Source of the DNA: an uncultured Spartobacteria bacterium
Lineage (GTDB): Bacteria > Verrucomicrobiota > Verrucomicrobiia > Chthoniobacterales > Chthoniobacteraceae
Reading direction: 5' to 3'
Assembly: GCA_903929475.1 (NCBI GenBank)
Contig: CAIYUV010000204.1
Location: 1-50,768 of the forward strand
Length of the DNA stretch: 50,768 bases
Numbering within the stretch: the first letter of the stretch is position 1; each line of letters begins with the position of its first letter. Position numbers and translations under genes: made by a program. Positions 37,237 to 50,768 of the stretch are shown here, piece after piece. The notes below the pieces were generated by a model, which ran no database searches, was not told where the DNA came from, and saw nothing but the letters and a program-made list of their open reading frames with translations.

Positions 37237-40200
37237 TTACTCGACGCCGGGTGTGCCGAGGGCTTCGATGTTTTGGTCGCGGAACCAGCCAACGTCCGCG
37301 CGAATTTCTCCGGTCGCGGATAATTGCAGCCAGCCGCTCAGAATTTCTTTCGTGCCGGGCACATGTGCGAAGACGGGCAGTCGTCCATCTTGTGAAAGCA
37401 ACGCCCCTGCCGTGAATGGGACTTTACCGCCGGGAAAGTCGCCAGTGATGCGCACGGAGCCGTCTGCGGCGACGTTCGCTTGCAGCGAAGCTCTGCCCAC
37501 GCTCGTTGCGAGCGCTGTGACGTGTCGGCCACTCCACACGGATGGCAGCGGAGTTTTTGCCGTCCCAAAGAGCGCGTGATGGCCGCTGATCTCGACGATG
37601 AGCGCCTCGCTGTGCAGGGCCCCGCGCATTTGTTGTGTGAGGGGGTCGAGTGCGAGCTGAACACGCAATGGCTCCGCTCCCTTGCGTGGAATTTTGATCG
37701 CGGCTGTTCCATCACGCGAGACGCGTCCGTTCAACAGAATGACGCCGTCCGGCAGAGATAGTTTTCCCGTGAGAGCGCCGGTTTTATCTACAAGAAATGT
37801 GATCTTTGCCGTATCGGCGAGTGTGTTTGCCGATGCGATGCCGATCCATTTTCCGCGCAGCTCGGCGAATGCGAAGGGGCTCGTGGGATCGGCTGTTTCG
37901 GTGTCCTCGTGCTGGAGAAGAAAGGCGGGCGCGGAGTCGTTGGTGTTGCTAGTGCCGCCGTTTGCCTTGGGGGCGGCAATCATCGCTGTGAGTGTCTGGG
38001 GTCCGCCGCTGCCGACGTTCACGGTCGTCGTGGCTTCGTTCGTTGCGCCGCCGTTGTCGGTGACTTTCAGACGCACAGTGTATGTGCCGGGCACGGTGTA
38101 GATGATGCTCGGGCTTGCACCGGTGAGCACGGTCTCGGCGACCGTTGTGGTGCGAGTGAATTTGAAATTATCGAAGATCGCAGTGCCGGGCGCAGTCTCG
38201 GGCTGCCATGTGCCTGCGGTGATTTCGGCACGCACGGCGGTCACGGGAAATTGCACCGCCAAGCTGTGCAATGTCTGCCACGTCGCACCATCCGCGCTGG
38301 CCTCGTAGGCCCACAGCGGTGTCGCGCCGGGAACGTGGCGGATGCGCCAGAAACGCTGCTGCGCGGGGTTGTAGGTGACAGCCTGATAAGTGATCGCTGC
38401 TCCGACAAACTGGCAGCAATAAAGCACGCCAGCCTCCTCGACCATGATCGCGCAATTGTTCGCGGTCTGGCAGACTGCGAGCAGCGTGTTCGATTGTCCC
38501 GCGCCCGCCTGCACGACTTCCGCACTCACGGCACCGCCGGTGAAATCGAACGTATTCGCGGTGACGTAGCCAGCAAAGCGGTCATTGCTCACGCCGCTGC
38601 GCAAAACGATTTCGAGTCTTTGATTTCTTTCCGCGACCGTGATGCTGGGATCAAATCCCGCCGAGCCCGCGTAGATGGTGCCGAAGACTGTGCCGACGCT
38701 CCATTTCGCAGCATCGCGTGCGTTGTCCGAAAAATCGTCGCTGAGCAAGGTGGTCACACGCGTGGTATCGCCCATGCGCCATTCGTAGTTCGCGATGCTG
38801 CCATCGGGATCGGACGAAGTGCTGCCATTCAGCGTGAGCGCCGTGCCGACGGTCGCGCTATATGGCCCGCCCGGTCGTGCTACGGGCGGCTGGTTCACCG
38901 GCGTGCTTGTGATCGTCGCCGTGGTGCTAGCGGTGTTCGTCGCGCCGGAATTGTCGGTGACTGTCAGCGCAACGGTGAAAGTGCCAGCAGTGCTGTAAGT
39001 CTTCGTCGGCGTCGGGCTAGTGGCAGTGGTGCCGTCCCCGAAACTCCACGCGTAGTTTGCAATCGTGCCATCCGAATCGCTGGACGTGCTGCCGTTAAAC
39101 GCAACCGCAACTCCCGTCGTGCCCGCGTAAGGGCCGCCGGGTCGTGCGACTGGCGGGACGTTTGCCGGTGCCGAAATCACAGCAGTTGTCGTCGCTGTGT
39201 TCGTCGCGCCCGCGTTGTCAGTCACGGTCAATGCGATGGTGAAAGTGCCCGTCGCAGCGTAGGTCTTCACAGGCGACACACCGCTCCCCGTCGTCCCGTC
39301 GCCGAAATCCCACGCGTAGTTGGAAATCGTGCCGTCCGCATCGGTGGACGCCGAGCCATTGAGCGTGAGCGCCACGCCGCGAGTCGCGGAGTAAGGGCCG
39401 CCGGGCCTCGCGACTGGCGGGAGATTTGCAGGCGGTGTGACAGTCGAACGCACAAGCTGAAACGAATCGAAAATCGCCATCGCAGGCGCTGCGACCGGCG
39501 TTCCGGTGCCCGCACCAAACTCCACTTTTGTCGAAGTCATCACAAAGCGCGCATTGTCCATGCGGAGCGTCTGCCACGTCGTGCCATCGGCGCTCGTTTC
39601 AAACGCAACTCTCGCCGGACTGCCCGATGTGTGGCGGATGCGCCAGTATTGCTGTTGCGTCGCGTTGTATGTGTGGGCGGAGATTTGGCGAATGCCCGCG
39701 ACAGTTTGATCCAAATAAAGCCCGCCGCTTTCCACGACCATGAGCAGGAAATTCTGCGGATCCTTTGCCACCGCGAGGTAGGTGTCCGCATCTCCACTCG
39801 CCGTCTGCTGCACGCGCACGCTAGCCGCAGCATCGGTAAAGTCGAACGCCGCCGCCGAAACATAGCCGGCATAGTGATCGCCGGCGACGTTCGCGCGGGG
39901 CTGCACCTCCACGCGCTGATTGCGTTCAACGACGGGAATCGTGTTATCAAAACCAGCCGCGCCGGATTCGATCTGCGCGATCGTGCCGACATTCCACTTC
40001 GCAGCATCGCGCAAGTTGTCGTTGAAATCATCCGCGAGCAGAATTGTCGGGCCGCTCGTTGTGTAGTTCACTGTCAGTGTATTCGACGCGATATTGCCGT
40101 CGCCGTCGGCATCCGTGGCGAGATTTGCAGCCACAGAAATCACGACATCCCCCACTACAATCGGCGTGACTGTGAATGTGTAGTTTGCACCGCTGCCTTG

Positions 40201-43200
40201 AAGATTGCTCGCGACACCATTTGTCACCGTGATGTCGCCAAGCGCGAATCCCGTGGCTGCGCTGCTGAAACTTGCAGTGACACTAAACGCTGCGCTCGCA
40301 CTCGCCGGAGCGCTGAGTGTGACACCGAGCGACACGGGTGCGGAGGAGATGCTGTCATCGAGATTGTGCAAGTAAGCGACAAGATTTCCGAGATCCGCAT
40401 CACTGAGGATCACGCCATTGTGAGCGCGCACCGCCGTGCCGAGCGTCGCTGCCGCGCCGTCGTGGAGATACGGAGCCGTGGCCCACAGTCCGCGCAAAGT
40501 CGGCACATCGAGCCCGGTGAGAGCGCCGCCGAGACGCTGGCCGCTGCTGGGTTTGAGCGTGCCGATGTCGCGGAAAACGCCGAGTGCGCTGTTGCTGAAA
40601 TTGACGCCGCCATGACAGCTTGCGCAGTTCTGCTGTTTAAAAATCGTGCGCCCGGCGAGAGCTGCGGCGGGGAGTGTTGCAGCGTCCACGCGCGCAGGAC
40701 TCGCGCCGGTTTTCGTGAGCGAAGCAAGGTAGGCCGCGAGCGCGTCGAGGTCAGCGCTGCGCCCGGCGTTCGGAGCGCCGAGCGTGGGGTTCGGCGTGCC
40801 GCCTGCGATCAAGCCGAGCCCGCCTGCGAAGTTACGAATTTGCCCTTCAAAATCCTGGAACTCGTCGAAGTTTCCAGTCCAGTGCAACGCACCCTGATTG
40901 CCGTGTCCACGCAGCGTGATCGTATTTCGCAGGCCCTCGCCAAAGCCGGTGAAATCCCACACGCGGCCATCATGCCCCGCGTCGTTATGGCAGCCTGCGC
41001 ACGAAAGATATTCCTGCAAAGCGAGACGGTTGTCCTTTGAATCATAGAAGAGTTGTTTTCCAAGCAGCACCTGAGCAGTGAGCTTTTCAGTCGCAATAGA
41101 ATTCAACGTAGCCGTCGTTGTGGCGGGCAGCACACCGCCGCTCACAATCGCGCTCACGTCGTGAACCGTCACCGTTCGATCCATGAAGTTTTGCACGAAA
41201 AGCGTCCTACCATCCGGCGAAATCGTGAGCCCTTGCGGCGCACGGCCAGCGGCGAAACGAGTGATCTCCACTGCATTCCAAACATCCACGACTGCAATTG
41301 CGCGACTGCCCTCCAGTGCCACGAATGCGTAGATGCCCGATGGATCGTAACAAACTGCGCTCGGGAGCCCCGCGTTGTCGAAATCCACTCGTGAGTTGTA
41401 GTCTTCGGTCTGCGTCACGAGATCGATCCGCGAAGCAATCGGACGCACCGCGCTCTCGTGCGTGAGGCCCTGACCGCTGCGCAGCACGCCGCGTTTGATG
41501 TTGTCCTGCTTCGACGGCACCCATGCTGAAAGTCCGTCCGGCGAAATCGCCGGGGCACCGAGGTAATTCGGAATGCCACGCCCGGAGATTGTCGTGTCCG
41601 GCTCCTCGCTATGCTGGAGGATGATCGTGCGCGTGACAGTCACCGTCGCTGCATTAATGACGAGCACCTCGCCCCCTTTGCCAGTGGTATCAATCACCGC
41701 CGTCTCCTCGCCCGGCAGGCGCGGAGTGATGAAACGACTCACCAAAACTTTCGCGCCATCCGCACTCACACTGAGATGCCGGACGTCCAGCCCGGCGGCG
41801 ATGTCCGCGAGTTGAGTGCCGGTCGAAGGATTCAGTTTCAACACACGGCCTGTTCCCTCCAGCGCAACCCACGCCGCAGTTCCCGCAGGATCAAATGCGA
41901 TACCAAACGGACGCGAGCCGCGAGGGAGCGTGATTGTCTGCGCAAGCGCATAGGTGGTGTTGTTCAAGATCGAAATCACTGCGCTGTCGGCGGCAGTCAC
42001 CCACACGCGGCCATCGGGCGCAATTGCCACGCAGCGCGGCGAAGTGCCCACAGTTGTCTCAGCCAGTTTCGCGCGAGTAACTGCGTCGAAAACCGACACC
42101 GTGTCCGCGTCAGGATTCGCGACCCACACGCGGCTGTTTGCCGGCGTGTGTGCTTCGTAGGCAATGCTGCTTGATGCATTCGGTTTTCGCGTGGTCAACG
42201 GCGCGAAGACGCCCTGGTAGAAGCTGGCCGTCACGATACGCCCCGTGTCGTCGGTGGCTGTCACCGTCACGAGGTAGCGTCCCGCCTGTGCGAATGTGTG
42301 CGTCACGCTCGGCGATGGCGAAGAGGCAGAGTTTGCGGTGCCGTCGCCGAAGCTCCACACGTAGCGCGGATTTTTTCCACCGGTGCTCTGCACGGTCAAA
42401 GCAGTGGACGAACCGCGCATGACAGGCGCGCCCTGTATCGGGCTGAGTGTGAGCGCAGAATTGATCGTCCATTGAAAATTCACCTGCGTGCCGCCGCCGG
42501 AAATTACCACGTTGTAAGTGCCGGATGTAGTCGGCGCGCCGGAGATCACGCCCGATGTGCTCCCGATGCTCAATCCCGCAGGCAGTCCCATTGCCGAGTA
42601 GGAAGGTGGTAAACCACCGCTGCCTGCGACTTGGATTTGCAGCGAAACGAGCTCGCCAACGACGCTGGTTTGATTGCCGGGATTCGCGAGATTGATCGGC
42701 GTCGCGGTGACTTGGATGATTTTCGAGACGGAGTGAACGCTTTTTGAATCGAGCGCGAAAAGCATCCAGAAACCGGGCGTCATCACATTCAGATTCGCGT
42801 GGGAAGTGAGTTCGTAATTTCCCGCCGCCACCTCGCTGAATGGGAGTTCGATATAGCGCAGATCCGTGTTCACGGAGTGTGTCTGCGACGACATTTTGAT
42901 GAACGCAAATTTCGACAAGCCGGCGGTTGCATTCACCGTGAAACGAACGCCAGGCCCGATCTGCGTCGGCGCTTGCGTGATAACCGGACGCGTAGCGAGC
43001 GTGCCGTCTGCGTTGAAGAGCGCGGGAGGGGTGAAAATTTGTGCGTCCTGATGATCTGCGGAATTTCCTCCGAGGCCGCCGCCGCCTGACCACACGCGGC
43101 CATCTGGGAGTAGCAGCGCGAGTGAGTGGTAATTGCGCGGGACGCTGTTATTCGCGAGCGTCCGCCATGTGCCGGTGCGCGGGTTCCACACTTCGGGCGT

Positions 43201-44265
43201 GAGCACGGAGCCGGTGTCGTTGAATTTCAACCCCGTGTTACCGCCAATCACCATCACCTCGCCGCTTGGAAGAATCACCGAGTTTGCAAACTGCCGCGCG
43301 AATTGCATCGAGGCCGCAGACTGCACGACGGGTGTCGCACCGTTCAGATTCACCGTGTAGGCTACGTTTGTGCTCGTGCCCGTGGTGGAGTCGCTTGGGT
43401 TCGGCGTGGTGTTTGCACCGCCGCCAGCAACGACGATTTTACCTTCGTCATACATCGCCCAGCAGCCCTCTTTTGGATAGTGCGTTCCGGGGACGTTTAG
43501 CCCCGATGCTGTGAGCGTTCCACTGCCGTTGGGATTCACCCAGTCCATCGAGCGCGTGGGGCCGAAATGAAAGAGTTGACCATTCGGTGCGATGAGCAGA
43601 AATGGATGCCAAATGTTGATGTAGCCCGCCTGGCTCGTCACCGTGCTCCAGTTAATGCCGTTGAGCCGCTGCCAGCCCGACGCCGCATTCCAACGCTCCG
43701 CCGTGTTCGAGCCGCCGCTGCCGCTCACGGTGAAAACGGTGCCGTCCGTGAGCGCCACGCTCGTGTTATACCAACGCGGATCGTTCATGTTCGGAATCGC
43801 AGTCCATTGATTCGTGCGATAGTCGAAGATGCTGGAGAGCACTGTCGTGTTGCGTCCGCCGTTCACGACGACGCGGCCATCCGGCAGCATCGAAACGCCG
43901 CCGCAGAACATGTCGTGGCGCGTGTTGTTGATCTCGGTGAATTGCCCGGTCGCCGGATCCCACACTGCTGCGTAGGTAAATTCAGGCCCCGATGGAAAAG
44001 TCGTGCGTTGATTCGATGCGAACGTGAGCAGTCTGCCGTCTGGCAATTGCGCAGCCGTGACCGGAATGTGAGGCGTCCATGGAATGACCGCGGACCATGT
44101 GCCGGAGCCGACGGGATCCGTCGCGGGTGCTGCTGCTGCAACGTAGGCCGGAGCGAGCGCGGCGGCATCGGCGGCGAGTTGATCGGAAAGCGCGTGATCC
44201 GTGGTGCCTGCAAACGCGGAGGATGCGAGGACGGCGAAGACAAATGAGATGCGAGACAGTTTCAT
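37237..44265 (-). CDS. Giant exported copper-radical oxidase / di-heme peroxidase multidomain protein
   Basis: A 2342-residue protein with a signal peptide (MKLSRISFVFAVLASSAFAG). Residues about 50-520 form a galactose-oxidase-like kelch propeller plus its C-terminal Ig domain. In HDMFCGG, RWYNTS, NYHSLALLLPDGR and THSVNTD, Cys121, Tyr166, Tyr379, His380 and His463 match the Cys-Tyr cofactor and copper ligands of galactose oxidase. The stacking Trp next to the cofactor is not seen at its usual place. Then come an Ig-like domain (525-600), a PKD (615-680), a YVTN-type propeller (710-1035) and a di-heme peroxidase module (1060-1300) with CAGCH (1089-1093) and CASCH (1214-1218). A beta domain, a LamG-like module, two PKDs, a third PKD split by a second LamG-like module, and a C-terminal domain follow. 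Family copper-radical oxidases make H2O2. The partner gene ends 14 bases upstream. Confidence 0.85.
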   Translation of the reverse strand: MKLSRISFVFAVLASSAFAGTTDHALSDQLAADAAALAPAYVAAAAPATDPVGSGTWSAVIPWTPHIPVTAAQLPDGRLLTFASNQRTTFPSGPEFTYAAVWDPATGQFTEINNTRHDMFCGGVSMLPDGRVVVNGGRNTTVLSSIFDYRTNQWTAIPNMNDPRWYNTSVALTDGTVFTVSGSGGSNTAERWNAASGWQRLNGINWSTVTSQAGYINIWHPFLLIAPNGQLFHFGPTRSMDWVNPNGSGTLTASGLNVPGTHYPKEGCWAMYDEGKIVVAGGGANTTPNPSDSTTGTSTNVAYTVNLNGATPVVQSAASMQFARQFANSVILPSGEVMVIGGNTGLKFNDTGSVLTPEVWNPRTGTWRTLANNSVPRNYHSLALLLPDGRVWSGGGGLGGNSADHQDAQIFTPPALFNADGTLATRPVITQAPTQIGPGVRFTVNATAGLSKFAFIKMSSQTHSVNTDLRYIELPFSEVAAGNYELTSHANLNVMTPGFWMLFALDSKSVHSVSKIIQVTATPINLANPGNQTSVVGELVSLQIQVAGSGGLPPSYSAMGLPAGLSIGSTSGVISGAPTTSGTYNVVISGGGTQVNFQWTINSALTLSPIQGAPVMRGSSTALTVQSTGGKNPRYVWSFGDGTANSASSPSPSVTHTFAQAGRYLVTVTATDDTGRIVTASFYQGVFAPLTTRKPNASSSIAYEAHTPANSRVWVANPDADTVSVFDAVTRAKLAETTVGTSPRCVAIAPDGRVWVTAADSAVISILNNTTYALAQTITLPRGSRPFGIAFDPAGTAAWVALEGTGRVLKLNPSTGTQLADIAAGLDVRHLSVSADGAKVLVSRFITPRLPGEETAVIDTTGKGGEVLVINAATVTVTRTIILQHSEEPDTTISGRGIPNYLGAPAISPDGLSAWVPSKQDNIKRGVLRSGQGLTHESAVRPIASRIDLVTQTEDYNSRVDFDNAGLPSAVCYDPSGIYAFVALEGSRAIAVVDVWNAVEITRFAAGRAPQGLTISPDGRTLFVQNFMDRTVTVHDVSAIVSGGVLPATTTATLNSIATEKLTAQVLLGKQLFYDSKDNRLALQEYLSCAGCHNDAGHDGRVWDFTGFGEGLRNTITLRGHGNQGALHWTGNFDEFQDFEGQIRNFAGGLGLIAGGTPNPTLGAPNAGRSADLDALAAYLASLTKTGASPARVDAATLPAAALAGRTIFKQQNCASCHGGVNFSNSALGVFRDIGTLKPSSGQRLGGALTGLDVPTLRGLWATAPYLHDGAAATLGTAVRAHNGVILSDADLGNLVAYLHNLDDSISSAPVSLGVTLSAPASASAAFSVTASFSSAATGFALGDITVTNGVASNLQGSGANYTFTVTPIVVGDVVISVAANLATDADGDGNIASNTLTVNYTTSGPTILLADDFNDNLRDAAKWNVGTIAQIESGAAGFDNTIPVVERNQRVEVQPRANVAGDHYAGYVSAAAFDFTDAAASVRVQQTASGDADTYLAVAKDPQNFLLMVVESGGLYLDQTVAGIRQISAHTYNATQQQYWRIRHTSGSPARVAFETSADGTTWQTLRMDNARFVMTSTKVEFGAGTGTPVAAPAMAIFDSFQLVRSTVTPPANLPPVARPGGPYSATRGVALTLNGSASTDADGTISNYAWDFGDGTTGSGVSPVKTYAATGTFTIALTVTDNAGATNTATTTAVISAPANVPPVARPGGPYAGTTGVAVAFNGSTSSDSDGTIANYAWSFGDGTTATSPTPTKTYSTAGTFTVALTVTDNSGATNTASTTATITSTPVNQPPVARPGGPYSATVGTALTLNGSTSSDPDGSIANYEWRMGDTTRVTTLLSDDFSDNARDAAKWSVGTVFGTIYAGSAGFDPSITVAERNQRLEIVLRSGVSNDRFAGYVTANTFDFTGGAVSAEVVQAGAGQSNTLLAVCQTANNCAIMVEEAGVLYCCQFVGAAITYQAVTYNPAQQRFWRIRHVPGATPLWAYEASADGATWQTLHSLAVQFPVTAVRAEITAGTWQPETAPGTAIFDNFKFTRTTTVAETVLTGASPSIIYTVPGTYTVRLKVTDNGGATNEATTTVNVGSGGPQTLTAMIAAPKANGGTSNTNDSAPAFLLQHEDTETADPTSPFAFAELRGKWIGIASANTLADTAKITFLVDKTGALTGKLSLPDGVILLNGRVSRDGTAAIKIPRKGAEPLRVQLALDPLTQQMRGALHSEALIVEISGHHALFGTAKTPLPSVWSGRHVTALATSVGRASLQANVAADGSVRITGDFPGGKVPFTAGALLSQDGRLPVFAHVPGTKEILSGWLQLSATGEIRADVGWFRDQNIEALGTPGVE

Positions 44266-44279
44266 AGCTGCAATTGAAT

Positions 44280-46082
44280 TTACGGTTGGGCCGCGAGTGC
44301 GGGTTTGGCTGGGTGGAGGAAATTTTCGTCGGTGAGCGTTTTGAGGAAGGCGACGAGATCGCGCTTTTCATTCGCAGTGAGCGACAGCCCGGCTTCGGGA
44401 TGTTTCGCGAGGTTTGGGTCGAGCGTGTCGCTGCGTTGCACGCCGGTGCTGTAGTGCTCCACGACTTCTTCGAGCGTGGCGAAGCGTCCGTCGTGCATAT
44501 ATGGCCCGGTCGCGGAGATGTTGCGCAGCGATGGCGCGCGGAATTTTCCACGGTCCGCCGGATTTTTTGTCACCGCCATGCGGCCCACATCATCGGCGGC
44601 GAGCACGAGTCCGTTGTTGTGAAATTGATGATCGGTGAAGAGCGTGCCGCCATGGCAATGAAAGCAATCCGCCCCGCGTAAGCCGCGCGCCGGATCGAAT
44701 TCCGTGAGAAAAAGCTGCAAGCCGCGCTTTTCCGATTCGTTCATCTCCGCCTGCTTGCGCACCGCGAGATCGAAGCGCGAATCCTGCGAAACGAGCGTGA
44801 GCAAAAACTGCTCAAGTGCCTTCGCCACGTGTTCGCTCGTCACGCCGCCGCTGCCAAATGCCTTCGCAAAATCAGCGGCGCAGTCTGCATCGGCGGAAAG
44901 TTTCGCCACCACGCGATCCAGATTTTCATTCATCTCGTGTGCGTCCTGAATGGGCATCAGCACTTGCTCGCGCAGCGACTTCGCCCGGCCATCCCAAAAA
45001 AACTCCGACTGCCACGCTAGATTGAAAAGCGCCATCGCGTTCCGTTTTCCCGTCTGCCCCTCCGCGCCCGTGCTCGTCTTGCGCGGATCGGCAAACGCGC
45101 TGCCCTGCATATGGCAGCTCGCGCACGACTGCGTGTTGTTCACCGAGAGTCGCGTGTCGTGAAACAGCCGCCGCCCGAGCGCCACGCCCTCGTCCGTGAG
45201 CGGATTATCCGCAGGCAGCGCGATGCGCGGCAGACGCTGCGAGACTTCCAGCCGACGCGCCGTCGTGCCGGGCGGAATCGTTGTTTTCACCACCGCCGCC
45301 ACATTTTCCTGAAACGCGTCGCCCTTCACCGCGCGCACTTGGAAAGCACCCTCCGTGTTCTTTTTCAACCGCACCGCCAGCGCATCGCCAGCCCGCGAGT
45401 GTGTGGATGCGCCGTCGCGCGAAAAATCCACACCATCGAGAATGTGTGCCACGTCGAGCGTGATTTGGATCGTATTCGGCTGCGCGCCGCGCAACGCCAC
45501 GGGCAACTCCACCGTCATCAAATTTGCATCGTTGCCGAGGTGATACGAGTAGCCGCCGACTGCCTTTCCGCGTTTCGCATAATGACCTTCCAGCGCGAGG
45601 AACACATAGCCGCCCTGCCAGCCCCAATGCAGTTTGTTCACGTCGGGGTGAAGCGCCGAGCCGGGCGTGATGGTATTCGGATCAGTCGCATTCATCGCAG
45701 CGCTCACGCCCACGTGAAAACGGATCGCTTTGAAATCCTGCGCAGGCACTCCATCGGCAAACGCCGCCGTCCGCCCCTCGCTCGCGCTGATGAACGCCGC
45801 CCAATCGGAAGCGCCATCCAGCCACGAGCCATCCATTCGTTGGAGACTCAGCCCGCTGATGAAATAATCCAGCCGCGCCACGCTGGGCTTTCCCTCCTCG
45901 GCCAAAGCGGTGAACTGCACCGGTCGCCCGCACCATTCATGGCTGAATTCCAGCGGCAGCACTTCGCCTGAGGCTGACGAAACGGCGAAGCAAACAAGCA
46001 AGCTGGCAACAAGACTGCGCAAATTTCCGGCAGCCTTTGCTAAAATGATCATCGCACGCAGTTCTCGCGGGTGGGAGTGCAT
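44280..46082 (-). CDS. MbnP-like domain fused to MauG/MbnH-like di-heme peroxidase
   Basis: A 600-residue exported protein; the signal peptide ends near SSASG (a start at 46052 is also possible). Residues about 41-230 match the MbnP (TIGR04052) family: VLPLEFSHEW, an FHVGVSAAMN strand, LHWGWQGGYVFLALEG (151-166) and GGYSYHLG. Residues about 280-590 are a di-heme cytochrome c peroxidase of the MauG/MbnH kind with CASCH (320-324) and CFHCH (473-477), plus RAPSLRNISATGPYMHDGR. MbnP and MbnH are normally separate partners, and MbnH oxidises a Trp of MbnP that takes part in copper binding; here they are one chain. The next gene, 14 bases downstream, is the copper-oxidase/di-heme giant. No methanobactin genes are nearby. 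Confidence 0.85.
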   Translation of the reverse strand: MHSHPRELRAMIILAKAAGNLRSLVASLLVCFAVSSASGEVLPLEFSHEWCGRPVQFTALAEEGKPSVARLDYFISGLSLQRMDGSWLDGASDWAAFISASEGRTAAFADGVPAQDFKAIRFHVGVSAAMNATDPNTITPGSALHPDVNKLHWGWQGGYVFLALEGHYAKRGKAVGGYSYHLGNDANLMTVELPVALRGAQPNTIQITLDVAHILDGVDFSRDGASTHSRAGDALAVRLKKNTEGAFQVRAVKGDAFQENVAAVVKTTIPPGTTARRLEVSQRLPRIALPADNPLTDEGVALGRRLFHDTRLSVNNTQSCASCHMQGSAFADPRKTSTGAEGQTGKRNAMALFNLAWQSEFFWDGRAKSLREQVLMPIQDAHEMNENLDRVVAKLSADADCAADFAKAFGSGGVTSEHVAKALEQFLLTLVSQDSRFDLAVRKQAEMNESEKRGLQLFLTEFDPARGLRGADCFHCHGGTLFTDHQFHNNGLVLAADDVGRMAVTKNPADRGKFRAPSLRNISATGPYMHDGRFATLEEVVEHYSTGVQRSDTLDPNLAKHPEAGLSLTANEKRDLVAFLKTLTDENFLHPAKPALAAQP

Positions 46083-46245: not shown

Positions 46246-46318
46246 GGGCCTGTAGCTCAATGGTCAGAGCAGGGGACTCATAATCCCTTGGTTGCGGGTT
46301 CGAGTCCCGCCGGGCCCA
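46246..46318 (+). tRNA. tRNA with CAT anticodon (probably Ile2)
   Basis: A 73-base tRNA with acceptor GGGCCTG/CGGGCCC and discriminator A; no CCA is encoded. The anticodon loop is CTCATAA. The anticodon arm GGGGA/TCCCT with the terminal G-T pair and the TTGGTT variable loop closely resemble tRNA-Ile2, whose C34 is modified to lysidine by TilS. An elongator tRNA-Met cannot be excluded by eye. Confidence 0.9.
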
Positions 46319-46340: not shown

Positions 46341-47276
46341 ATGACGAACGACGAGACATTGAAGGGGAAGCGCATCGCGGTGATCGGCTCCGGGGCGGTG
46401 GGGGGATATTATGGCGGGATGCTTGCGCATGGCGGGCATGATGTTTCGTTTTTGATGCGCGCGGATTTGGAGGCGGTGCGCTCGCAGGGGCTGCGCATTT
46501 TTACGAAGGGAAATGAGATCCGCCTGCCGCGCGTGGCGGCGTTTGCGACGACGGAGGAAATCGGGGCGGTGGACTTGGTGATCATCGCGCTGAAGACGAC
46601 GGCGAATGCGGAGTTGGAGCGGTTGCTGCCGCCGCTCATCGGGCCGGGCACTGCGCTGCTCACGCTGCAAAACGGGCTGGGGAATGAGGAGTTTCTTGCT
46701 GCGAGATGGGGCGCGGAGCGGGTGATGGGCGCGCTGTGTTTTGTGTGCATCAATCGCACGGAGCCGGGCGTGATCCGGCATCTGGATCAGGGCTCGATTT
46801 CCGTCGGTGAATTTCGCCGGCCTGCATCGGCACGCGCGCAGGCAATTGCAGACGCGTGGCGCGAGGTGAGCATCGAGGCAAAGGCGGTGGACAACCTCGC
46901 GGAGGAGCGCTGGCGCAAACTGCTGTGGAATATCCCCTTCAACGGTCTCTCCATCGCTGCGCGTGCAAATGTGGGCGCGGTGCTCGCGGATGACGGACTG
47001 CGTTCGCTCGCACGTTCGCTGATGGAGGAGGGTCTTGATGCCGCGCGGCGTCTCGGGCACGCGATTCCCGATTCTTTTGCCGACTGGCAAATCGAGCGCA
47101 GCTACTCGATGGGCGACTACAAGCCATCCTCGATGATTGATTACGAACTCTCGCGTCCCGTGGAGGTCGAGGCGATTTGGGGTGAGCCGTGGCGGCAGGG
47201 AGTGGCGGCGGGTGCGACGATGCTGAGGCTGGAGGCGCTCCATTGCATCATCGCGCATCTCACGCGAACCGCTTGA
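46341..47276 (+). CDS. panE: 2-dehydropantoate 2-reductase (ketopantoate reductase)
   Basis: A 311-residue NADPH-dependent reductase of pantothenate (vitamin B5) and CoA synthesis, reducing ketopantoate to pantoate. The N-terminal Rossmann motif is AVIGSGAVGGYYGG at about residues 13-26. The family block TLQNGLGNEEFL, the catalytic Lys in RWRKLLWNIPFNGLS and a C-terminal PSSMIDYELSRPVEVEAIWG region are present. ApbA/PanE family members can also act on other 2-keto acids, so the pathway is likely but not certain. It starts 22 bases after the CAT tRNA. Confidence 0.92.
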   Translation: MTNDETLKGKRIAVIGSGAVGGYYGGMLAHGGHDVSFLMRADLEAVRSQGLRIFTKGNEIRLPRVAAFATTEEIGAVDLVIIALKTTANAELERLLPPLIGPGTALLTLQNGLGNEEFLAARWGAERVMGALCFVCINRTEPGVIRHLDQGSISVGEFRRPASARAQAIADAWREVSIEAKAVDNLAEERWRKLLWNIPFNGLSIAARANVGAVLADDGLRSLARSLMEEGLDAARRLGHAIPDSFADWQIERSYSMGDYKPSSMIDYELSRPVEVEAIWGEPWRQGVAAGATMLRLEALHCIIAHLTRTA

Positions 47277-49163: not shown

Positions 49164-49304
49164 TTGCGAACCAAACCGTCCCATGCTTTCGCTTTGGGTG
49201 GAGCCTGCCATTTCCATTATTAAATTGCGGATGGATATCTCCTAATGCATTTTGTCGCGTTTTCACGTCTTTCACTCCTCCCTAAAATCTCCATCCAATC
49301 GCTC

Positions 49305-50768
49305 ATGAAACCTCCAAAATATCACAGATATGCCTTCCGTATCTGCGCGCTGCCGTTTGCGGCATTGTTTGCTGTATCTGCATCGGCGGCGAATATTTCA
49401 TGGACAGGAACTGCGGACGCCGTGTGGAGCACGGGAGGAAACTTGGAGGGTGGAGTCGCACCGGTGGCGACGGACGTGGCGGTGTTTGATGCGGGGTCGC
49501 TGTCGAATTTGACCGCGTCTCTCGGGCCGGATTTTTCGATTCAAGGTTTGAGGATTACGACGCATGGCGGGCTGATAACCATCGGCGGAGCAAATGCACT
49601 GACGCCGGGCACCGGCGGAATTGGGTTGAGCGGTTCGCTACTAGATTTGCAGTTGAACGCGCTGGTGGCGCTCGCTGCCGAGCAGTCACGAAATGTGATT
49701 ACTGAAAAGACTTTAGCAGCGAGTGCGGTGATCAGCGGGGCAGAGGTGAATTTGAGCAAGATCGGGATCGCGGATCTGACGTTCAGTGGGCCCAATATGT
49801 TCGCAGCGGCTCCTGCGCTTGCAAACGAGCAACTCAATGAGACGGGAATCTTGAATGGAACGAAGGTGGAAAAATTGGCGTTCACGGATTTCGGGACGTT
49901 GAGCATCGGTGTTGCGTCGCAGGTGAATCGGGCGATCGGAGAATTGCGGATGAGTGATGGCGGTGGAGTGTCGAGGTCTGCGAATCATGAGGGGAAGCGG
50001 ACGGTGAAAATTTCTTCGCGTGGCGTGGGTAAGGCGGGGGCGAAGGAAAAGACTGTGGTTGCCGACATCACGGAGGAGGATCTGCGTGCGGCATTGAAGT
50101 TGAAGGATGGCACAGGGCCTTTGTTCGTGGCTGCTGGAGCAGATGGGTTGACTCTTCGCGACGCCGGGTTCGGCAATACGAGCGCGGACAATGTGACTGG
50201 CTTCGTCGCCATGAGTGATCAGAATTTGGGACGCCAATACGTGACGTCGAGATTGGTTCCGTTGGTTTCCCCGCCGTCGTCAGGCGCGTGGACTGGCGCC
50301 ACGAACGCCTTATGGGCCATAGGCACAAACTGGGGCGGTGGCACTGCGCCCGGCACGGGAGACACGGCTGTGTTTAACGGCGCGAGCAGCAACCTGACTC
50401 CCGATCTCGGAGCGGGAGTCACCGTCAACACGATCAGCTTCGAGACATCCAGTGCTGCGGCTTACACCATCGGCACCGGGTCCAGCCAGTCACTCACGCT
50501 CAACAACGGCGGGGGGATTACGATGGGTGCCGGGGTTAACAACGCCGAGGCTATTAACGCCAGCATCGTTCTTGGCACCGACGGCACGACGCAGACATTC
50601 GCTATCAGCAGCTACAACACGTTTGCCACTTCTAAGACTTTGACTTTCGGGGTCGTAGGAGGAGGTCAGAATATTTCTGGTTCAAGCGGCTCTGGCGTCA
50701 AAACATTGAATGTCATTGCAAGCGGTGTTCAGGGAAACGTTGGCAACACCATCAGCATAATCAGCAAC
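49305..50768 (+). CDS. Autotransporter-associated beta-strand-repeat protein (partial)
   Basis: The frame is open from ATG 49305 to the end of the window (488 codons). A signal peptide (MKPPKYHRYAFRICALPF, cleaving near VSASAA) is followed by a beta-strand-repeat unit (ISWTGTADAVWSTGGN; VATDVAVFD) and, after about residue 325, a second unit (GAWTGATNALWAIGTNW; GTGDTAVFNGA). This passenger-associated pattern is typical of very large surface proteins of verrucomicrobia, which often end in a PEP-CTERM or autotransporter barrel outside this window. Residues 165-300 between the units are less repetitive. No function beyond surface location is claimed. Confidence 0.8.
   Translation, partial: MKPPKYHRYAFRICALPFAALFAVSASAANISWTGTADAVWSTGGNLEGGVAPVATDVAVFDAGSLSNLTASLGPDFSIQGLRITTHGGLITIGGANALTPGTGGIGLSGSLLDLQLNALVALAAEQSRNVITEKTLAASAVISGAEVNLSKIGIADLTFSGPNMFAAAPALANEQLNETGILNGTKVEKLAFTDFGTLSIGVASQVNRAIGELRMSDGGGVSRSANHEGKRTVKISSRGVGKAGAKEKTVVADITEEDLRAALKLKDGTGPLFVAAGADGLTLRDAGFGNTSADNVTGFVAMSDQNLGRQYVTSRLVPLVSPPSSGAWTGATNALWAIGTNWGGGTAPGTGDTAVFNGASSNLTPDLGAGVTVNTISFETSSAAAYTIGTGSSQSLTLNNGGGITMGAGVNNAEAINASIVLGTDGTTQTFAISSYNTFATSKTLTFGVVGGGQNISGSSGSGVKTLNVIASGVQGNVGNTISIISN

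Follow-up and report, generated by a model that had tools for sequence, protein, structure and literature searches.

A secreted bacterial copper-radical oxidase fused to a YVTN propeller and di-heme module, with an MbnP-MbnH operon partner: a candidate copper-radical oxidation machine

Known copper-radical oxidases (CROs) are O2-dependent oxidases, and horseradish peroxidase activates them; in galactose oxidase, Arg330 and Gln406 bind galactose and Trp290 provides stacking. In the MbnH/MbnP pair, H2O2-driven oxidation of a Trp creates a copper site. In the literature searched, the only demonstration of how a CRO is kept in its active radical state in nature comes from a fungus, whose tandem peroxidase and AlcOx are separate enzymes; there the peroxidase acts on inactive Cu(II) AlcOx and generates the radical form (PMC9770985). 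In hydrazine synthase (HZS), heme γII is bis-His ligated and heme γI has a third Cys and Asp168, and the bis-His heme has been proposed to take up electrons and pass them on (PMC12607021). Our literature search found nothing relevant on a CRO fused to a cytochrome, CCP or MauG (most subscription journals lay outside its scope). We describe here such a fusion and its operon partner, both encoded in the window, by which we mean the whole 50,768 bp stretch of uncultured Spartobacteria bacterium DNA that was analyzed (contig CAIYUV010000204.1). The locus looks like a self-contained candidate copper-radical oxidation machine; its features are collected in Table 1.

Table 1. Features of the CRO-di-heme gene and its operon partner (coordinates are those of the window)
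Feature	Coordinates	Strand	Basis
2342-aa ORF from ATG: CRO, He_PIG + PKD spacer, YVTN propeller, di-heme module, Ig/PKD/LamG-like tail	37237..44265	-	
Putative Sec signal peptide, residues 1-20 (MKLSRISFVFAVLASSAFAG)	44206..44265	-	By eye
CRO (galactose-oxidase-like) domain, residues 48-520	42706..44124	-	phmmer, Pfam, AF2, Foldseek
Cys121 = galactose oxidase Cys228 (thioether)	43903..43905	-	Alignment
Tyr166 = Tyr272 (thioether + radical, Cu ligand)	43768..43770	-	Alignment
Tyr379-His380 = Tyr495-His496 (Cu ligands)	43126..43131	-	Alignment
His463 = His581 (Cu ligand)	42877..42879	-	Alignment
He_PIG (523-601) + PKD (605-676) spacer	42238..42699	-	Pfam
YVTN-type beta-propeller, residues about 690-1055	41101..42198	-	
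Di-heme c-type module, residues about 1060-1305 (CCP_MauG / HZS-gamma-like)	40351..41088	-	
Heme 1 motif CAGCH, residues 1089-1093	40987..41001	-	
Heme 2 motif CASCH, residues 1214-1218	40612..40626	-	
His1282 at the place of the CCP Met; probable distal heme 2 ligand	40420..40422	-	Alignment; ambiguous vs MbnH
Big_12 Ig-like domain, residues 1321-1399	40069..40305	-	Pfam
DUF1349/LamG-like unit 1	39451..40044	-	Pfam, below gathering score
PKD array	38776..39432	-	Pfam
DUF1349/LamG-like unit 2, apparently inserted within third PKD repeat	38176..38763	-	By eye
MbnP-MbnH gene of the operon, upstream (600 aa): fusion of an MbnP copper-protein domain and an MbnH di-heme peroxidase	44280..46082	-	
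MbnP domain, residues 43-224, WxW at 153-155	45411..45956	-	Pfam PF20243
MbnH domain, residues 290-593; CxxCH at 320 + 473	44304..45215	-	Match to MbnH structure 6e1c

The N-terminal part of the long protein had been predicted to be a galactose-oxidase-like CRO over about 500 residues, and sequence, profile and fold all agree that it is one. The domain matches solved galactose oxidases over its full length by phmmer (9g8h/9g43, 1.8e-97; 1gof, 4.1e-76), the Pfam profiles GO-like_E_set (2e-16) and Glyoxal_oxid_N (3.4e-11) both score above their cut-offs, and an AF2 model of the domain (mean pLDDT 89.4) overlays in Foldseek with TM values of 0.88-0.89 on the galactose oxidases 1gof and 9g43 and on AA5 alcohol oxidases. 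Like the AA5 CROs (Fusarium galactose oxidase 1gof; Pseudoarthrobacter galactose oxidase 9g43; GlxA), it has a Kelch propeller followed by a GO-like E-set (Pfam, AF2 and Foldseek), a Cys-Tyr cofactor pair, two Tyr and two His copper ligands, and probable export. The five catalytic residues named in the original prediction are exactly where it placed them, and sequence alignment puts them in register with Cys228, Tyr272, Tyr495, His496 and His581 of the Fusarium enzyme. Because this set is complete and galactose oxidases are the best matches by both sequence and fold, a kelch protein that lacks oxidase function is ruled out. At the level of sequence, profile and overall fold, neither refuting outcome named in the original prediction was encountered.

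The domain differs from those AA5 enzymes in its fusion to a second propeller and two hemes, in its operon with an MbnP-MbnH gene, and in its substrate pocket: the alignment shows no conservation of Arg330 and Gln406, which bind galactose, or of the stacking Trp290, and the Trp290 column holds no aromatic residue in the fused homologues. Galactose itself is therefore an unlikely substrate, judging from these columns, and true galactose specificity is unsupported.

About 170 residues separate the CRO from the YVTN propeller. Pfam found the PKD modules that had been predicted for the chain, and the predicted LamG-like modules are tentative, with a DUF1349 match (E = 4e-4) that lies under the gathering score. 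The PKD, Ig and LamG-like tail would anchor the enzyme to a surface or polymer.

The two CxxCH motifs that had been predicted in a MauG/CCP-like part of the chain lie in a module that scores above the Pfam cut-offs for CCP_MauG (32.5 bits; cut-off 25.6) and Cytochrom_C (37.1; cut-off 21.3), and which by its sequence is a di-heme member of the CCP/MauG/HZS-gamma superfamily. With bacterial di-heme CCPs and MauG it shares, besides these motifs, a PxLR...PY(L/M)HDG motif and an inter-heme Trp (W1129 aligns with that of the CCPs). It differs from them in being preceded by a YVTN propeller and in two features of its active site. The CCP/MauG Gln104/Glu114 positions are Asp/Gly or gap in the sequence alignments, so the canonical pair is not conserved, and neither the Met (CCP) nor the Tyr (MauG) ligand of the second heme was found in the alignment, which has His1282 at that place (ambiguously against MbnH); heme 2 probably takes this His as its distal ligand in place of Met or Tyr. 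An AF2 model of the module was too poor to place the hemes (pLDDT largely <50) and was set aside as evidence. The di-heme CCP_MauG part of the original prediction thus stands; its call of an H2O2-consuming peroxidase is not established, given the probable His ligand and the missing Gln/Glu pair, which leaves H2O2 use by the fused module unproven.

These same residues bear on the coupling that the original prediction had proposed, in which H2O2 from the adjacent oxidase is consumed by the heme module, acting as a true peroxidase, to oxidize a second substrate; detoxification would be another purpose. The CCP_MauG profile match, the two hemes and the retention of both active-site residue sets in a single chain speak for such a peroxide relay. 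The Gln104/Glu114 equivalents are not conserved, however, the HZS-like arrangement (below) lacks Cys165 and Asp168, and an intact peroxidatic set is found instead in the neighboring MbnH half (below); we consider the relay unlikely.

In arrangement, the module and its propeller resemble hydrazine synthase beta-gamma (5c2v; NCBIfam hydrazine_BC) more closely than a free-standing CCP. By profile and fold, the best relatives of the propeller-heme part include hydrazine synthase gamma and beta, and the beta subunit is among the best solved matches of the YVTN propeller, the rest of whose Foldseek list is mostly unrelated propellers. Both systems have a YVTN-like propeller and then a CCP-like di-heme domain in the same order, a similar first heme motif (SCASCH...WD) and a probable bis-His second heme. 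On the other side, the protein scores far under the NCBIfam cut-offs, a copper oxidase is linked to it, no alpha subunit was seen, and, in an alignment with hand-derived residue numbering, neither Asp168 nor Cys165 (which we take to be the third heme-binding cysteine of heme gamma I) is conserved. Hydrazine synthase activity is unsupported, as those two residues are absent by alignment.

The probable bis-His heme 2 and the absence of the canonical peroxidase pair also fit a copper-radical dehydrogenase, in which the heme module is no peroxidase and serves as electron acceptor of the copper site; electrons from the alcohol would travel through the bis-His heme to external acceptors, and hardly any H2O2, or none, would form, much as with the cytochrome domain of quinohemoprotein alcohol dehydrogenases or cellobiose dehydrogenase. 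Hydrazine synthase gamma, which by profile is one of the nearest solved relatives, has been proposed to pass electrons through its bis-His heme (PMC12607021). Simple electron transfer would nevertheless not need a heme 1 with an open site, and proximity of copper and heme is without support. With the O2 dependence of known CROs (above) also against it, we regard a dehydrogenase as quite improbable.

The original prediction had proposed a survey for the same architecture, and sequence scans recovered the CRO-YVTN-di-heme chain from no fewer than 23 distinct loci. Most are from Verrucomicrobiota, and one record each is labelled Anaerolineae (Chloroflexota), Sorangiineae (Myxococcota) and Burkholderiales, labels that may be wrong because most of the records are MAGs. 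Recurrence at this many loci rules out an assembly chimera. Wherever an aligned fused homologue covers them, the five copper and cofactor residues are invariant, and all 20 aligned heme modules retain both CxxCH motifs; the joint presence of copper and heme motifs across homologues is far beyond chance. Selection on all three core domains (CRO, propeller and heme module) is purifying, with dN/dS values between 0.035 and 0.17 in the four pairs that had diverged sufficiently, some of which have near-saturated dS. At one locus (L039:7740-14600) a single in-frame stop lies between the CRO part and the YVTN-di-heme part, which may be a natural split, an error or decay.

In the propeller-heme tree all fused proteins fall together in a single 99-starred group that has just one further member, L047, a contig fragment with no CRO in its available DNA. 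The fusion label needs two changes on this tree, with which a single origin is compatible; it is the simplest reading, and the fusion probably arose once. Unfused members of the YVTN-di-heme family (L093-L116) are mostly 1650-2865 aa long, with several copies in some genomes. In four unfused relatives that were scanned, the N-terminal part that replaces the CRO is LVIVD-type or unassigned. Because the wider family thus occurs without the oxidase and with other N-terminal parts, the heme module should have a role that is independent of the CRO.

Could the two halves then simply be neighbors in one chain? They might share a polymer or surface and exchange neither electrons nor peroxide, so that the fusion does no more than co-localize them. 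The occurrence of the YVTN-di-heme part without a CRO at 24 loci, and the long mosaic chain with its PKD and Ig spacers, agree with this view of independent modules. Against it, the fusion clade has persisted through wide divergence, and the gene that tracks the fusion (below) is itself peroxide and copper related. The distances of the MbnP-MbnH, CRO and heme parts also correlate over 17 loci (r = 0.92-0.93, with 0.93 for CRO against heme), which is weak evidence because such values are expected for any co-inherited parts. Independence of the modules seems to us doubtful.

The gene that tracks the fusion, which the original prediction did not mention, encodes an MbnP-MbnH (MbnPH) protein and ends 14 bp upstream of the CRO-di-heme gene. 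Its MbnP domain scores 100.6 bits against Pfam PF20243 (cut-off 27) and its MbnH half matches the MbnH structure 6e1c at 4.5e-55. The MbnH half retains the canonical peroxidatic set, W363, Q373, P377 and E383, plus Y544 at the distal-ligand place, and these residues and the MbnP WxW are conserved in at least 18 of 19 homologues. The MbnPH protein resembles the known MbnP/MbnH pair (TIGR04052/TIGR04039; 6e1c) in its WxW, its two CxxCH motifs, its Trp/Gln/Pro/Glu set and its Tyr; it is unlike that pair in that both halves are one chain and in that its partner is a CRO-di-heme gene. Because it scores under both NCBIfam equivalog cut-offs (267 against 363 for TIGR04039 and 43.5 against 140 for TIGR04052), we call it MbnP/MbnH-like rather than a proven equivalog.

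The operon appears to be limited to the MbnPH and CRO-di-heme genes, since it is flanked by a tRNA gene and by genes on the opposite strand. The tRNA gene (46246-46318, plus strand) lies between the operon and a plus-strand ORF at 46341. Farther along, an open ORF at 49245-50768, with repeats that look autotransporter/PATR-like, runs off the window.

How constant is this neighbor? MbnPH lies directly upstream in all 19 verrucomicrobial fusions that have upstream sequence and beside none of the 24 unfused YVTN-di-heme genes whose surrounding DNA was examined, counts that are not independent events because the fused genes are one group. The link persists across divergence down to 46% identity. 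Among 18 fused loci and the window, MbnPH is the most widely shared neighbor, and no other is shared as widely. No MbnPH lies within 7.6 kb of the fusions in the Chloroflexota and Myxococcota records, whose genomes match the MbnH half only. MbnPH is thus the constant neighbor of the fusion in Verrucomicrobiota.

The explanation that we prefer, and hold tentatively, is a copper-radical oxidase whose heme redox partner is part of the same chain and whose operon also encodes a copper/peroxide module. With O2 the oxidase would oxidize an alcohol or aldehyde that is either exported or bound to a polymer and is probably not galactose, releasing H2O2. The fused heme module would act as a one-electron partner that keeps the copper center in, or returns it to, the active Cu(II)-tyrosyl-radical state. 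H2O2 from the CRO would feed the fused heme module, MbnH or both; the MbnH half would use it to oxidize the Trp of the MbnP half and so form a copper site, and that site would load or protect copper for the oxidase. Such chemistry would tie the H2O2 and the copper need of the CRO to its operon neighbor. We know of no demonstration that MbnP is a copper donor to a CRO. Domains, residues, recurrence and linkage are what the analysis shows directly; from there we infer oxidase activity, the kind of substrate, heme-copper electron transfer, H2O2 use and copper delivery. Counting against this explanation are the missing Gln/Glu pair of the fused module, the occurrence of its family without an oxidase, the Chloroflexota and Myxococcota fusions with no MbnPH nearby, and the stretch of about 170 residues between CRO and propeller. 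A two-gene secreted redox system built around an AA5-type CRO is plausible, as is the coupling of its halves, because they form one chain, probably have one origin and are conserved. We also count the copper context in favor of this explanation: a second MbnP/MbnH pair of the same genome (C52; L130:3627-8626) adjoins a CusA/CzcA-family heavy-metal RND efflux gene.

The closest functional parallel is the fungal Perox-AlcOx pair, in which a copper-radical alcohol oxidase is likewise paired with a heme protein and the peroxidase activates the oxidase by one-electron oxidation (PMC9770985). By analogy, the simplest reading is that the heme module on the CRO plays the part of the fungal peroxidase partner from within the chain, and activation would proceed here in a comparable way. 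The two systems differ in that the fungal one is eukaryotic and has separate genes and a class II peroxidase, whereas here there is one chain with a c-type di-heme module. A stronger form of our preferred explanation is a self-priming machine that has its own heme activator in the chain, is loaded with copper by MbnP and has its own H2O2 burned by MbnH; this form we think somewhat unlikely. A fused bacterial CRO with a constant copper/peroxide gene would offer a natural, genetically linked setting for studying activation together with copper loading.

For the widespread and poorly explained MbnP-MbnH pair, the locus supplies a defined copper enzyme as a likely client. MbnP-MbnH fusions that are located away from CRO-di-heme genes are often near a gene for a secreted protein with a DPxLTSWxT...SGxYARxY start (L118, L119, L121-L124, L126-L129 and L134). 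The six of these secreted neighbors that were scanned (L119, L121, L122, L123, L126 and L134) are YHYH-domain (PF14240) proteins, which suggests that the YHYH-domain protein is a second client of MbnPH.
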